Shown here in pieces: positions 1-53,180 of a DNA stretch of 64,000 nucleotides (the stretch's first letter is position 1; every line of letters starts with the position of its first letter). Under the pieces are notes generated by a model. The model did no database searches. It had not been told where the DNA came from and was given only the letters and a program-made list of their open reading frames with translations. The DNA comes from Brachycybe producta (Eukaryota; Arthropoda; Diplopoda; Playtdesmida; Andrognathidae): the NCBI GenBank assembly GCA_036925085.1, contig JAUPFP010000001.1:253001-317000 (forward strand), written 5' to 3'. Both the position numbers and the translations under genes were made by a program.

Positions 1-572
1 AGTTGTACCCTGGGCCCCTCGGGGTGTGTGCTTTTGATGTGCATGTTGGGCAAGCCTTACTGAGGACCCAAAAGCAAGAGGGCAGTGAGTGCATTTATGA
101 TGGAGGTTGCCTGAGGGTGGGGAATTTTCTCTGTTTAGAGCTGCCAGTATGGCTGCATGTGCATTACGGAAGTGGGCATTGCCTGCTTTGAGGCTGGAGA
201 AGGTAGTGATGCATGCGGTGCAGTCAAATTCAATAATAGGGCACGCTCATGTTGCAGTTTTATGTGTTTAATTAAGTCACAGTGGGTGCGATAGATAGAG
301 GAACAGTTGGGGCAGGTAAAGTCTTTTGGGAGGGGTAGTGGGAAGGAAAGTGTAACAGTATCATTTCTGTATCCTGTAGGGGCAGTGGGTGGTAGAATAT
401 TTGTAGTTCCTGGGAAAAAGCCACAAATGAAAGAAAGGAGAGGGAGAGAAGAAGCAATTAAGTTGCTCAGTCCCAATACTACACTTGATCTTGGCTGCAG
501 TGAGGGTTGTGATTGCTTCTCTTCTCGGTAGAAGTGTGTATTTAAAATTTTGTTTTTAGATTTTAGTTTCAA
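1..572 (-). pseudogene. Utopia-like ORF N-terminus with three C2H2 zinc fingers, frameshifted
   Basis: The frame starting at 572 holds finger 1 (about 249-314), pattern C-X2-C-X12-H-X4-H, beginning DFTCPNC. Finger 2 (158-222, beginning DCTAC) and finger 3 (28-93, beginning KCTHC) have the same spacing but lie in another frame. The two frames would join if one base were missing near the short C run at about 238-241. Three clustered N-terminal fingers are typical of R2-like target-specific retrotransposons, where they contact target DNA. The single frameshift may be a real mutation or a sequencing error; the rest of the ORF lies off the left edge. Copy 2 carries a decayed version of fingers 1 and 2. 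Confidence 0.7.
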
Positions 573-849
573 TTTGATTTTATAAATTCTATTTCAATTA
601 TGACTTTAAAAAAAATATTTTTTTTTAAAGTTATGTGGTTGCCAGGTGACGCACTATGTATAGCTGACGAGTAGACAGGTGTTTGGAGTGGATGAAGAAT
701 TGTGAGAGTGTAGAAGAATTACATAAAAATTGGAAAATGATAAAAAAAAAAATAAATAAATAAATAAGAAAGGATTGTGAAGGAATGAGATAGTCACAAG
801 GGTCACAGCTCAAATAAAGTATTTAGAAGTGGAAGATGGTTAAAGAACA

Positions 850-1420
850 GTCAGGTTATGATGATGGGTGAGGATAGTGAGTGGGTAGAGATGGAAGTAG
901 CTGTGTAGGGTGAAGGCCAGAGATTGGCGGAAGTGGCAAAGAGCAGTAGGAAGGCACTTGTAGGTGTGGCACAAAGATGGCTGGAAAGAGTAGAGAATAA
1001 GGGTAGATTGTGAATGGTTTGAGTAAAATATTAAGAAGTGGGAGCTGGATAAAGAAAATAAAGGTAGATTGTGAAAGAGGACAGCTGAAGTGAAATATTA
1101 TCAAATGGAATATGAAAAAAAGTCAGATTATGAGGATGGGTGAGGATAGTGAATAGGTAGAAATGGAAATAGCTGTGTTGGGTTGGAAGTAGCAAATAGC
1201 ATAAGGCACTTGTGGGTGTGGCACAGACAAAGATGGCTGGCCAGAGTAGAGAATAAGGATAGATTGTGTGAGAATGGTTTGAATAAAGTATTAAAAAAGT
1301 GGGAGCTGGATAAAGAAAATAAAGGTAGATTGTGAAAGAGGACAGCTGAAATGAAATATTATCATATGGAATAAGGAAAAAATATAGTCAGATTATGAGG
1401 ATGGGTGATGATAAAGGAGG
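850..1420 (-). repeat. Direct subrepeats (~265 bp) in the retroelement leader
   Basis: A block containing gaggatgggtgaggatagtg (as written on the + strand) and cacttgtaggtgtggcac recurs about every 265 bp, near 855, 1127 and (partly) 1387. The stretch 1059-1152 is nearly repeated at 1319-1415 and again in copy 2 at about 2605-2690. Tandem subrepeats in the 5' untranslated leader are common in non-LTR retrotransposons. Confidence 0.7.
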
Positions 1421-1671
1421 TAGTGAAATGTGAGAAGGCAGTGTGTGGGATGGGCACCTGAGATGGGCGGAAGTGACAAGGATAGAGGATGTTGTAGGTA
1501 TCAGAGGAACATGACTGGTTTAGAGAAAGGATGCTATACATAGATACAACAAAAAGGCAACTCACAGTTTTTCGAGATGGTTTCCTGGCATGTTTTGAAA
1601 AGATGACGATAAAGAAGAACACATGTTGCAGCAGGTTAGATTTAAATATGGCCAGAAAATATCGCCAGAAT

Positions 1672-1775
1672 ATATTAAGCTGATAACATTTGAGATTTAA
1701 ATATGAACGGCGTTCTTTTTGGTTATATTAAGCTGATAAGAACAGATACTACACTTTGATAGCCATGAGGCCGAG
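1672..1775 (-). pseudogene. U2 snRNA 5' fragment (target remnant of copy 1)
   Basis: Minus strand from 1775 reads CTCGGCCTCATGGCTA, then TCAAAGTGTAGTATCTG and TTCTTATCAGCTTAATAT, that is U2 nucleotides about 8-61 with a 3-nt deletion (AGA), ending at 1725. After 38 nt the motif TTATCAGCTTAATAT recurs (1672-1686) before the element begins, a short duplication of the target edge. The first seven U2 bases are missing where it abuts copy 2. Confidence 0.85.
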
Positions 1776-1787
1776 TTGCGGCAGTCT

Positions 1788-2192
1788 TTTTGTTAGTTAC
1801 CACTCCCAGTTGTCCCCAGGCTATCTTCCTGACCCAGGAGTCGTTGTTGGCCAACATTGCAAAGCCCTGGGTGATGAGTAGTAGGTCTTGTAGAACATTG
1901 AATGGGATCAGACTGGTCCCTCCTTTGAAAGTGTGGCAGGTGGGATAGTGGCTAGATGCCCTAGTTGGAAGGTTTAATCAGGATTTGATACATGACTTTG
2001 CCTTCTTGTCCAGTTTGTGTAGATCTTTTTGGGGTATGTGCAGATGTGGAGAAAGAAGTCCAGTCGGGGTTGAAGGAAGGTGAGGTAGGTGTCAATCTTC
2101 TGCCAAGGTGCCAGTAGGGACTTGTGTAGCGAATTGAGGTCCTCTAGTAGTGATTCTAGTTGCTTGGTGAGGGATCCGGTTCTGTAGGCCAT
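1788..2192 (-). pseudogene. Reverse-transcriptase thumb remnant (R2/NeSL/Utopia type)
   Basis: The frame from 2192 contains LLAPWQKIDTYLTFLQPRLD followed by a PKKIY segment, the hallmark 'PWQKI..F..PRL' thumb motif of R2/NeSL-type RTs. A neighbouring frame continues with LDKKAKSCIKS, a stop where Trp is expected, LNLPTRASS, FKGGTSLIP and LLLITQGFAMLANND, the usual post-RT order (LD..W.NLP.., GG.GL..). One frameshift and one in-frame stop make it non-functional. It ends in U2 sequence at 1775. Confidence 0.8.
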
Positions 2193-2219
2193 GGGAGAGG
2201 GTTTCCTGTTTTAAGGCTA

Positions 2220-2430
2220 GAGAAGGTTGAGCTGCAGGAAAATTCAACAGAAATGTTGTGATTATGATGCTGCCGAATGTGTGATCATGTCAGAGTGGGT
2301 GTGGAATATGGAGGAGCAGTTTGGGCAGGTGAAATCTTTGGGAAGGGGCAGAGGAAAAAAGATTTCAACTGTGGTCATTTTGATAGCAGGTGACCGGCCA
2401 CAAAACGAAAAAAAAAAAGAATTCTAAGGA
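2220..2430 (-). pseudogene. Decayed zinc-finger region of copy 2
   Basis: The minus strand encodes PLPLPKDFTCPNCSSIF, nearly identical to finger 1 of copy 1, but the His end is broken and stops follow. A remnant of finger 2 (STFSSLKTGN) is seen close to 2210-2240 with its Cys pair collapsed. It shows that copy 2 once carried the same N-terminal domain. Confidence 0.65.
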
Positions 2431-2957
2431 TCACTTCTCAGAGTAGTTGGGGAGTGGGATTATGGTTGTTAGCAGGGTTGGGGTGATGCTAGACTGGTGG
2501 GAGTAATTGGCCAGTGAGGAGTCAACTCTTAAGGAGTTGTAGAGCAGCCAGAGAGGACCACTCTAAAGGGGTTGTAGAGAGGACAACTCTAAAGGAGTTA
2601 GATTGAAAGAGAACAGCTGAAGTGAAATATTATCAAATGGACGTTGGATAAAGGACAGTAAGATTATGAGGATGGGTGACGATAATGGAGGTAGTGAGAT
2701 GTGAAAAGGCAATGTGTGGGATGGGCACCTGAGATGGGCGGAAGTGACAAGGATAGAGGATGTTATAGATAGCAGAGAAACACGAGTGGTTGAGAGAAAA
2801 GGCGCTATACATAAATGCAACAAAAAGACAACTCAGTTTTTTGAAACGGTTTCCTGGCTTGAGTTTTCGAAAAGATGACGATGGCAAGGAAGTACGCATG
2901 TTGCAGCAGGTTAGTTTTAAATATGGCCAGACTTTTTCTTTTTCTTTTGGTTGGAAT

Positions 2958-3022
2958 ATATTAAGCTGATAAGAACAGATACTACACTTTATTTAATCTT
3001 AGCCATGAGGCCGAGAATTGAT
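2958..3022 (-). pseudogene. U2 snRNA 5' fragment (target remnant of copy 2)
   Basis: Minus strand from 3022 reads ATCAATTCTCGGCCTCATGG, then CTAAGAT, a 4-5 nt insertion, and AAGTGTAGTATCTGTTCTTA up to CAGCTTAATAT: U2 nucleotides 1-61 with small changes. It stops at the same U2 position as the copy 1 target and is followed by the retroelement leader. Confidence 0.85.
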
Positions 3023-3053
3023 TTGTATATGTTAATTGCAATAAAAGAAATTT

Positions 3054-3222
3054 ATCTGTTCTTATCAGCTTAATATCTGATACATACCTCATTGAGGCAC
3101 CAGAATATTAAACTGATTTTTGGAATCAGGCAGAATGTTCGGGGCTTGTCTCACTTCCGCCGTGGGTTGGCCTGGTATTGCAGTTCTTCTAGGATCAGAC
3201 CACTCCCCCACACCAGGGGGAG
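3054..3222 (+). pseudogene. U2 snRNA, 5'-truncated copy on the + strand
   Basis: Starts at ATCTGTTCTTATCAGC (U2 nt ~39) and continues through the Sm site (GATTTTTGG), stem III and stem-loop IV to the 3' end near 3215, with several substitutions against the full copy at 3973-4163. It lacks stem-loop I and most of the branch-site pairing region, so it is probably non-functional. It faces away from the U2 5' fragment at 2958-3022, only about 31 bp off, and forms one arm of a large inverted repeat. Confidence 0.85.
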
Positions 3223-3972
3223 ACTTAAACAATTAATTTCAAGACACTTAAAAAAACCTTAATTTTAGTACAAAGCTTCTACAGTTTCAATTATGCACAT
3301 TAAGTGAGGTGATGACCTCATATGAAAACCAAACAGTGTCACAATATGTAAAACCGCTATATATATATATATAATCAAATTGTTTGTAAATCAAAACCAA
3401 AACGTATTAAATTGTTTCAAAATAAATTTGGCAATTAATGGTCCATTAATTACAAAATAAAAACACCTTTCATTGAGAAAACATAACTTGGAGTGTGAAA
3501 CAAATAATAAAATTGTAAGAAATATAAGTTAAGTTTGTTAGAAACTTAAAGAGCAGTTTCAGTCCATATTATCTTCTAAAATGTAGTTTTCAAAAGTTCT
3601 TCTATGTTTTCAAGTTTTTCATTTGGAAGTTATATCATTATGAAATTACTTTTATTCATTTCAATTACTCTTCTAGTATTCAAGTGTTTAGGCCTTCTAG
3701 TGTAGTTATTCAAGCTCAAAGCAAAAGGATTTTTTTGGTTTTCATTTAAAATCAAACATTTTGTAAATTGTTTATTTCGAAAAATATCATTTGAGTACTA
3801 AATTTACATAATGCTAATTTGCATATATTATAATTGTTCAAACAATAACAGCATTTACGACGTCATCAACCTCACTCCATGTGTATAATTGAAATTGTAG
3901 CAGCTTTGTACTAAAATTAAGAGGGTTTTTAAAAGTCTGAAATTAATTGTTTAAGCCTCCCCCTGGTGTGGG

Positions 3973-4163
3973 GGAGTGGGCCGATCCTGGAAGAACTGCA
4001 ATACCAGGCCAACCCGTGGCGGAAGTGAGGCAAGCCCCGAACATTCCGCCTGATTCCAAAAATCAGTTTAATATTCTGGTACCTCAATGAGGTACGTATC
4101 AGATATTAAGCTGATAAGAACAGATACTACACTTTGATCTTAGCCATGAGGCCGAGAAGCGAT
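3973..4163 (-). ncRNA. U2: U2 spliceosomal snRNA, full length
   Basis: Minus strand from 4163: ATCGCTTCTCGGCCTCATGG (stem-loop I), GTGTAGTATCTGTTCTTATC with the GTAGTA branch-point recognition sequence, stem IIa/IIb, the Sm site GATTTTTGG flanked by CTG..CAG, GGTTGGCC of stem III and CCTGGTATTGCAGTTCTTCCAGG-type stem-loop IV, ending in a C run about 190 nt later. U2 pairs with the intron branch point in the spliceosome. All conserved elements are intact, unlike the other U2 pieces nearby, so this is the likely functional copy. The exact 3' end is estimated from the usual length; I did not identify a promoter element with confidence. Confidence 0.93.
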
Positions 4164-4936
4164 ACAGATTTGACGAACGACATTTCAGATATCCGTACAA
4201 ATTTCTTCCTTTCAGAACGGTGAAATTTGAAAAACCTCGTATAGTAAAAAAAATCGCTCTAAGACCAGCAGAAAAAATCGCTTCAAAATAATCTCTAAAA
4301 CTAAACAAACAGAATTGCTGTTTTATTAAATTAATTATTAAAAGTTAATTTGCTAAATTATTTCTACTAATATGTATATATTTGTGAGTTACTCTCTTCA
4401 TTCTGGTCGTAAAGTGAAAATGAGTTATGAGCAACACACAGTTATCAAGGGGGTTGTTGACCTCTTGAGTCGCTTTCATGCACAAGATGCACAGCTGTGA
4501 CGTCATTTAAAAACGAAACAAACTGTAGCGACCTCTATTGGCATTTAATGGCACTACTATATTTTTAGTTAAAAAAATTTTAATACTTGGATAAAAAGTT
4601 TATTTTGAAAGATTTTTTATGAAAAAAGATATATATGACATTCGTCTTTACTATTCTAGTTTTTAACAAACTTTGATTTTTTTTTCTTAAAAAATCAAAC
4701 AAATCTAAAAACAAAAAATTGTTTGCTATTCTGTCCAAAAATTGGGTCATTTTCCTAAAAAAAATTATTTTAAAAAGATTTCAACATAAAAATACTTTTA
4801 AGTCACTCAGTTACTTTTCTAGTTTCTAAAACAGTTTCAAATTTTTCTTAAAATTGTTTTCGAAACACAGATTAACGAGTGTTACATATTTTAGCAACTT
4901 TGTTATAAAATCGCATTTATATTTTTTCCATTGCAG
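4164..4936. other. AT-rich spacer or intron, no gene seen
   Basis: Between the U2 gene and the + strand terminal exons. Contains one TGACGTCA (4498-4505) and, from about 4560 to 4865, a copy of the foldback repeat family (TCAACATAAAAATACTTTTA then TTTTCTAGTTTCTAAAACA). It may be the upstream intron of the + strand gene that ends at 5205. Confidence 0.6.
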
Positions 4937-50462: not shown

Positions 50463-53180
50463 GAACCTCTAAAAACAGTCTAGTTGTTTGAAAAAACGCA
50501 TAATTCTTTAGATTTTACTGGATAATTAAATAAGTACAACTCGTAATAAGTGTGATTATGACAAGACTTATAATATGTTGAAATAGTTTAACTTACAAAT
50601 CATGGGATGTAACCGAGAATTAAGCACCCTTAAGAGGGAAGGAAGAAGCATTTGGAGGCCCTAAAATATTTTGCATTTTACAACAAGTTTAAATTGATAT
50701 AAGTTTGTGCCATCCATGTTTTTAACCATTTTAATGTCTAAAACCATAATTATTAAATTTTGTACGAAAAGCTTTTTGTGGTAAAATAAAAACTCAATTT
50801 AAAAGTGAAAGTCTGAACCCCGAAACCTGCCCCCCCCCCTTTCCGCAAAAGAAAAACCTGCACAAAGGCTTCGTAAATTGTAACTTATTATTTATTTTTA
50901 CTCTTAACAATCACTTTGTAAGATTTGTACCAATCATCGATAATATAGAGAAAAAAAAAATGAATTTAATTGCAACTTGTTAACTAGTGTTTTGTGAGAA
51001 AGAAAAAAATAAACGTCTTAATGATATTTAAACGAAAACTGACTAAATTTTTACGTTCGTGGTTAAGAAATTTCGATATATCACAACGTTGTTTTTTTCA
51101 GCTCTGTGACTATTCTCCATTTAAATCGATTCATTTTCAATTTAATACCTTTTGTCGTTGACAGTTTTATGACCAAGTTTTTTTTAATTATTCGATAAAG
51201 CAAAAAAAAAAAAAAAAAAGAAACTTGAATTAATCTGCAAAAAAAAACTTCGTTAAGAAAATTTCAAAAAAACAACAACAAAAACAAACAAAAAAAAGCA
51301 AACGCAATTCTCTAAAATATAAATAATATTCATTCATTTGAGGTAAATTGTAATAAAAGCAAGAAGAGATCTATAAACACAATCACGATTAATTATTGTA
51401 AAAACAGATTCAAGCTCATAATAGTTAACCATTTTTTTTTGTTAAGCGAACCAGGTTAACTACCGAGCTCCTAACTAAACAAACTCACGAATTGCTTATC
51501 AATTTTTTTTTTTGGAAAGTTTCGGAAGTCCAGCCCCAAAAGCACAACTGATTTTTCGTATAATATATTAAAAAAATTATAAAAACAAATAACAAATATG
51601 TCTACTTAATCAAGTTTTACACAACAGAGAGAAAGAAAAAAAAAATAATTGATTTAAATTTGTTTTGGCTTCAAATTAAAAATATAACGATTTTTACGAG
51701 AATATTTTTTTACGTCAGTTGTGCCTTTTTTTTCTTCTGCCTGTGGTTATTAATAATACGCGCAACCAGCAAAAAAAAGGAGGAATCAATCACATGCTTC
51801 ATGAAAAACAAAGCAAAAGCTGAGAATAACTTTGTGCAAATGTCTCAAAAAACGTGTGTGGAAAAAGGCCAACAGTGGAGACAAACAGAAACAAAAATAC
51901 GATTTTTCCTTAAAAGCCACGAGAGAACAACAACAGCAGCAGCAGCGGCGGCGGCGTTACGCACGCCACAAATTTGTCACAACCGTTCAAAAACCTTCCA
52001 CACTTTTTTTATAAAGAGTATCATGAAAAATGACTATGAGAACTTGGTGACTTTTGTTGAAACTTTCTCTCCACCCTGTACAGTGCGGCACTTAAAAGAG
52101 CACACTTTAAAGTAAAATCCCAGCGAAAGAACAGTGCTGACCGCCAGATAGCAACACTTGCGAAATGATCACTTTCATATTCATTTGTGATTGCAAACAC
52201 AGTAAAAGCAGCAGCAAAACTCTCGTAATTTAGAACCAAATTGCAACAATTTCTACTTCTCTGCCCTACAACAAAAATGGCGCCCAAAAGCAGAATTGCA
52301 ATAAGCATTGTTTATTCTTAATTCTAATTTAATTTCAGCTTGTTCGAAGTAGATACTCCGCAAGCAGCCAAGAGGGGGGGGGTCCCCCCATTGGCAGCAA
52401 AAACAGGACTCCAAATGCTGCTACACAAGTTGCATTGCCATCGCGAGACACACGAAACCTTGGATCCGGACGGCATTCCCGATCTTTTGTTTCGAAAGCA
52501 ACGCTTATCTCTCGAAAACCGGTCAATACGATTCTTTTGCTGGAACTATAACAAAATACATTATGCTAATCACGAGAAGAGAAAAACAAAAAAACATCCA
52601 CCATGTTTGTTTCTTTTGGCTGCGCCCCAATGCCATTCGATTGCTCTTTTTTTGTTGTTGTTTTACCTAAACACAAATTTGATTGTCCACAACGCTTAAC
52701 AGAAGAAACCCCCCCCCCCCTTTTCCTTTAAGATTCACAACACAAAATTATTAAAACAATCTGAGAAACAAAATAAACAAGAAGAAGAATAAAATAAAAA
52801 GTTCGGACATTCTCTTTTTTTTTTGCCTCACAACCCAGTATATCACCAATTGTTGTCTTTGGTAATTGGCAGGTGGTTTGTTTTTCTATTTCTGCGCAAC
52901 AAATTAGTGAGTTTTAAAAAGGATTCTGTGTTTTAAAAAGAGACAAAGTTAAGAAGATATGTTTTTTCGGGTTTTGTGTTTTTCTTTTGGTGGTTTTTAG
53001 TGTGGCGAAGATTTGGGGTGATACAATTTTTTTTTTTTTACAATTATATAATTATAGATTATTTTAACTTTTCAAATTGTGGTTTTATGTTTTTTTTTTT
53101 CACAACCAGAATGCACAAAATTGACAAAAACACTCAAAACCCTCGAGAGCTACAACAACTCCGGGGTTTTTTATATTTTC

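Follow-up and report, generated by a model that had tools for sequence, protein, structure and literature searches.

Relics of probable Utopia-like retrotransposons and their junctions with U2 snRNA sequences in Brachycybe producta

Which kind of element left the broken copies that lie behind U2 snRNA fragments at one end of this Brachycybe producta sequence, and how did their 5' ends come to be joined to U2 at almost the same nucleotide? A preliminary description, made from the letters alone, recognised two Utopia-like copies there, and we reexamined the locus within the whole stretch of 64,000 nucleotides, which is called the window below. The window is animal DNA, because exons for NPL4, an NMDA-type glutamate receptor and the GW182 M domain were recognised in it; together with an RRM exon, these host exons lie within 12778-60380, all four on the minus strand, and a plus-strand open reading frame at 51660-52112 gave a sub-threshold match to Cadherin_C_2 (E 0.0022). 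The relics are probably what is left of three dead copies of a Utopia-like, target-specific non-LTR retrotransposon, with at least two families represented; Utopia is placed in the NeSL clade in the consulted part of Kojima and Jurka (2015, PMC4640811). Coordinates of all features are collected in Table 1.

Table 1. U2 sequences and element relics in the window, with fragments and relics called A, B and C
Feature	Position	Strand	Remarks
Relic C	1-455	minus	Three C-X2-C-X12-H-X4-H fingers, the first two separated by a frameshift; continues past the window edge
U2 fragment C, ~nt 13-60, older	~456-505	minus	Smith-Waterman score 35; 38/47 identical outside gaps
Relic B	805-1671	minus	Leader and 5'UTR; no coding remnant recognised
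Leader-like remnant (31 nt) and second partial U2 stretch (nt 40-61, 18/22)	1672-1724	minus	
U2 fragment B, ~nt 3-61	1725-1784	minus	Fused to end of A's thumb; 54/56 identical, 3-nt deletion
Relic A	1785-2957	minus	Leader/5'UTR, finger 1, part of finger 2, internal deletion to RT thumb; truncated past the thumb
RT thumb coding remnant of relic A	1785-2195	minus	One frameshift and one stop
U2 fragment A, nt 1-61	2958-3022	minus	58/61 identical to intact U2, 4-nt insertion
Segment between 3' junction and fragment A	3023-3054	plus	32 bp; contains AATAAA
Disrupted U2 gene, limited to nt 40-193 (from Rfam nt 39)	3055-3208	plus	145/154 identical to intact U2
Intact U2 snRNA gene, numbering reference	3971-4163	minus	Rfam RF00004, 183.8 bits, model 1-192

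Compared with the Rfam consensus, the intact U2 gene carries an additional A near nt 30, so that nt 40 and nt 61 in our numbering correspond to Rfam nt 39 and nt 60, respectively. It stands tail to tail with the disrupted plus-strand gene, and the pair forms an inverted repeat whose arms (3053-3310 and 3869-4126) are 90% complementary with 558 bp between them. Compared over the slice of nt 39-193, the disrupted gene has 6% substitutions against the intact one, and 91 of 101 positions outside gaps match in the flanks past the two genes. The plus-strand U2 starts sharply at TCTGTTC, base 3055 (Rfam nt 39): counted in register per 10 nt, the identity to the intact gene is 3, 2, 5 and 5, and then 10, 10 and 9 from nt 40. 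Upstream of this edge the likeness to U2 is at shuffle level, the 32-bp score being reached by 1454 and the 39-bp score by 814 of 5000 shuffles. Because the two bases before TCTGTTC (TA) also match U2, the position of the edge is fixed to within about 2 nt. Its sharpness rules out a plus-strand U2 that has merely decayed at the 5' end. According to the accessible text of PMC4640811, U2 resumes from nt 39 downstream of Utopia in Phytophthora, and the Utopia families are said to have the same 3' flank as Keno, TCTGTTC; the accessible text of PMC6136364 likewise lets downstream U2 resume at TCTGTTC after Keno. On this agreement of sequence we identify the start at 3055 as the published Utopia/Keno 3' junction, which the preliminary description had overlooked while it saw the U2 5' junctions. 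The segment at 3023-3054 is a putative 3' tail of the element, or else U2 5' flank; it has no match to the flank of intact U2 above shuffles (924/2000 reach its score).

At the other end of the elements, fragments A and B both stop at U2 nt 61 and then depart from U2. With Rfam at a relaxed threshold they score 42.1 and 37.7 bits, which are below the gathering score of 46. The score of fragment C exceeds the maximum of 28 found in 1000 dinucleotide shuffles (0/1000 reach it), and C differs from U2 at 9 of 47 aligned positions with 4 further gap positions. It keeps the register to nt 59-60, since nt 41-60 match at 12/20 (P 0.0027 at a match rate of 0.28) and the positions beyond at 7/20. U2 sequence starts with nt 1 in fragment A and with about nt 3 in fragment B, which directly adjoins the end of A's thumb; in the stretches preceding A (33 nt), B and C (200 nt each), no flank of intact U2 was found above shuffles, 924, 1796 and 833 of 2000 reaching the respective scores. 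The leader of B contains a second partial U2 stretch, in which only nt 47-61 are clear and the first seven of nt 40-61 match at 3/7; this may have arisen by local duplication, or may be the duplicated target that separates two nested copies. Near matches to U2 nt 1-12 were also seen on the plus strand at 512-528, beside fragment C and in the opposite orientation to it (12-mers at 512, with 3 mismatches, and at 517, with 2, a possible fold-back), and another 12-mer similar to U2 nt 1-12, with 2 mismatches, lies at 2430-2441 in relic A.

All three relics in the window (3/3) come after U2 fragments, and the coding remnants seen in them are all broken. The leaders of A and B are identical in 291 of 340 columns (291/330, about 88%, outside gaps); the 5'UTR of B contains at 805-1413 an imperfect tandem repeat of about 265 bp with 80% identity, which is apparently single-copy in A. 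The common leader and the common halt at nt 61 had both been pointed out in the preliminary description, and both were borne out. Its count of two copies was right as far as A and B are concerned and has to be extended by the third, older fragment C at ~505-456. Its assignment of fingers to one copy and thumb to the other is correct in that both exist, but A has finger 1 as well as the thumb, and the three fingers, at 344-1, come after fragment C. For finger 1 we compared A with C over the 27 shared in-frame codons, chosen because frameshifts come after them, and found 20 differences, 15 of them at third codon positions (pS 0.82, pN 0.09, Fisher p 1e-8); in the wider finger region 125 of 165 positions match outside gaps. 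This pattern of substitutions points to A and C as descendants of protein-coding lineages that parted long before their death and stood under protein selection, and the three relics, read in this manner, come from at least two families, one for A and B and the other for C. Because the leader of B is close to that of A (291/330) while the A-C synonymous divergence is saturated, the fingers of C do not belong to the coding region of B, barring a recombinant origin of B. Relic C is older, since its U2 fragment is more decayed. The U2 parts of A and B have about 4-5% substitutions, against about 12% (39/330) between their leaders, which is consistent with an arrival at about the same time from similar sources, as inferred from substitution levels in small numbers. 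From base 4200 on, the window gave no further copies (blastn at E 1e-3; best tblastn E 0.35). A pattern for loci related to the thumb matched 45 stretches in genome_contigs and 1 in viral_contigs, of which none was confirmed in either set, and a DNA pattern of the leader had no match in viral_contigs.

Chimeric pseudogenes could in principle give a similar picture, if an unrelated LINE had switched templates and copied U2 RNA along with a second RNA, in the manner of L1 and U6. Chimeras between L1 and other RNAs, and the value of U6 pseudogenes for marking L1 activity, appear in the consulted parts of PMC13174262 and PMC4476161. A 5' break falling within 2 nt in three copies of two diverged families, together with a 3' junction at a known nick site, speaks against this origin, and we consider it very improbable.

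The type of the encoded protein was examined using the surviving part of the reverse transcriptase (RT). A phmmer search with the thumb read-through of A against 177,635 distinct PDB sequences, up to E 10, gave four entries with E 0.1-0.62: 9dou (R2Tg, E 0.1) and 9nl3 (E 0.11), both named R2 and with identical aligned stretches, and 8ibw and 8gh6, both named 'reverse transcriptase-like protein' (E 0.62), again with identical aligned stretches. We take 8ibw and 8gh6 to be silkworm R2 and the matched stretch in the R2 chains to be the thumb; the four entries are probably two R2 proteins. As a control, the reversed letters of the thumb matched one unrelated PDB chain at E 0.4, and a 57-aa part of the thumb matched solely an unrelated chain at E 0.83. 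The fingers, whose form was read by eye, number three in C and one plus a part in A. Pfam at its cut-offs had no match for thumb or fingers, zf-C2H2_4 reaching the latter at E 0.0059, below its curated cut-off. Searching PDB with the fingers gave 32 matches, to CTCF and other C2H2 proteins and none named a retrotransposon protein, which is uninformative as to family. Single-sequence structure prediction was unusable for both fingers 2-3 of C (pLDDT 53.0) and the thumb part (pLDDT 49.5). A descriptor for an HDV-like ribozyme, which is uninformative without a positive control, had 0 matches in the three stretches scanned, and 30 shuffles of each stretch likewise gave 0.

C2H2 fingers, a 3' junction where the published one lies and a thumb resembling only R2-type enzymes make a Utopia-like element the best reading of the relics, and for the family assignment junction site and fingers count as much as the thumb does. 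The 5' junctions at nt 61, 61 and 59-60 speak for it, although A/B and C are different families. Against it stand the weak E-values of the thumb, the absence from the relics in the window of the RT core, of the endonuclease and of a confirmed 3' end, and the statement in the accessible text of PMC4640811 that arthropod Utopia has no target duplication; both junctions occur in no single insertion, so that the 22-bp duplication considered below is a composite figure. Of the RT only a thumb of about 135 residues is left, and the placement in Utopia is a putative one. The thumb of R2/NeSL type claimed in the preliminary description is plausible but weak, the PDB matches being of R2 type only and the best E being 0.1; its Utopia family of this lineage stands as the best U2-targeted reading, in the form of three relics from at least two families instead of two copies. 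A Keno-like element, belonging to the Tx1 group with an AP endonuclease, would have the same U2 3' junction, and the identity of the 3' flank in Keno and Utopia (PMC4640811 and PMC6136364, in the parts consulted) is the point in its favour. The thumb, however, matches R2-type RTs and, up to E 10, not one L1 chain, assuming that L1 structures are among the PDB sequences searched, and C2H2 fingers open the visible frame with no AP endonuclease seen, in a frame most of which is lost. The evidence as read from these sequences fits Utopia better than Keno, and we regard a Keno-like origin as unlikely.

For the 5' ends of these probable Utopia-like copies, the following scheme may be considered. The endonuclease would nick U2 genes before Rfam nt 39, and cDNA would be primed there by target-primed reverse transcription. 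The element would ride on the U2 transcript, its RNA starting at U2 nt 1 and including U2 nt 1-61; the U2 part of the cDNA would then anneal to the target and fix the 5' junction, so that nt 40-61 (22 bp) would be present on either side. An RNA begun at the U2 start is suggested because A and B start at or near nt 1 without a recognisable U2 flank; the 32 bp upstream of A are too short to exclude a U2 promoter. The A-B tandem, in which A's thumb is joined to U2 from about nt 3, could represent a template jump at the RNA 5' end. Twin-primed inversion is a mechanism of L1, and where fragment A meets the plus-strand U2 head to head, via 32 bp, the join might be an inversion of this type, with the RNA 5' end beside a short sense 3' tail. 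Related properties of R2 are described in the available portions of two papers: 28S sequence kept at the RNA 5' end goes with mostly uniform junctions, all junctions of an earwig R2 have a 22-bp duplication of downstream 28S (both PMC3774820), and the R2 polymerase has an unusual ability of template jumping (PMC2718515). The titles and abstract openings listed by literature searches contained no description of a U2-initiated Utopia RNA or of Utopia inversions. We tentatively propose, as a possibility well short of an even chance, that a U2-element chimeric RNA was made from the U2 start site and that its first 61 nt formed a heritable 5' module, fixing the junction, enabling template-jump tandems and common to two long-diverged families.

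A serious rival to this scheme, to which we give about equal weight, keeps the Utopia-like elements and regards the U2 1-61 pieces as DNA, namely 5' halves of clustered U2 genes joined by recombination and deletion. It competes with the co-transcript part only, and its chances overlap with those of the Utopia-like reading; we judge it somewhat less than even. The two U2 genes here do form an inverted repeat, and Utopia copies in U2 arrays and in tandem have been published (PMC4640811, accessible text). R1 tandems are explained, in the available portion of PMC2718515, by insertion into a 5' target duplication, and the 31-nt piece of B with nt 40-61 (18/22) could be an insertion of this kind. 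Such an insertion, however, leaves only nt 40-61 between copies, and the A-B spacer is U2 from about nt 3; the deletion must end near U2 nt 1 by chance; and there is no recognisable U2 flank before A (33 nt tested), B or C (200 nt).

The locus presents a probable Utopia-like lineage with a 5' junction geometry unlike that given for arthropods in the accessible text of PMC4640811. The scheme of a U2-initiated RNA, which can be tested, would explain how an element residing in an snRNA gene could produce its RNA and set its 5' junction. Two families decaying together at one animal U2 locus also recall the oomycete puzzle of several Utopia lineages and few U2 genes.

In comparison with known systems, the relics resemble Utopia in the U2 3' junction at TCTGTTC (one junction here, 3055), in N-terminal zinc fingers, numbering one to three, and in tandem copies and multiple families at one locus, both of which are reported in the consulted part of PMC4640811. 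They differ in that the 5' junction lies at Rfam nt 60, implying 22 bp duplicated as a composite figure, whereas the same part of that paper gives 20 bp for reptiles and none for arthropods, and in that the U2 sequence at the 5' end of B extends back as far as about nt 3, where it is joined to a different relic. The region in which Utopia has a C-terminal zinc finger and a restriction-like endonuclease is absent from the copies in the window. Keno shares the U2 3' flank; its endonuclease is of the AP type (PMC4640811, same part), in contrast with a thumb here that resembles R2-type RTs. R2 has a weakly similar thumb sequence, and many R2s keep target RNA at the 5' end (PMC3774820, available portion), which is similar to the U2-initiated RNA proposed here; the target of R2 is 28S rRNA whereas the junctions here are in U2, and an HDV-like ribozyme had no Rfam match up to E 5 in bases 1-4500. 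The tandem arrays of R1 are alike in having head-to-tail copies in one target gene, but R1 copies are separated only by a 14-bp target duplication (PMC2718515, available portion), and the copies here by U2 from about nt 3.
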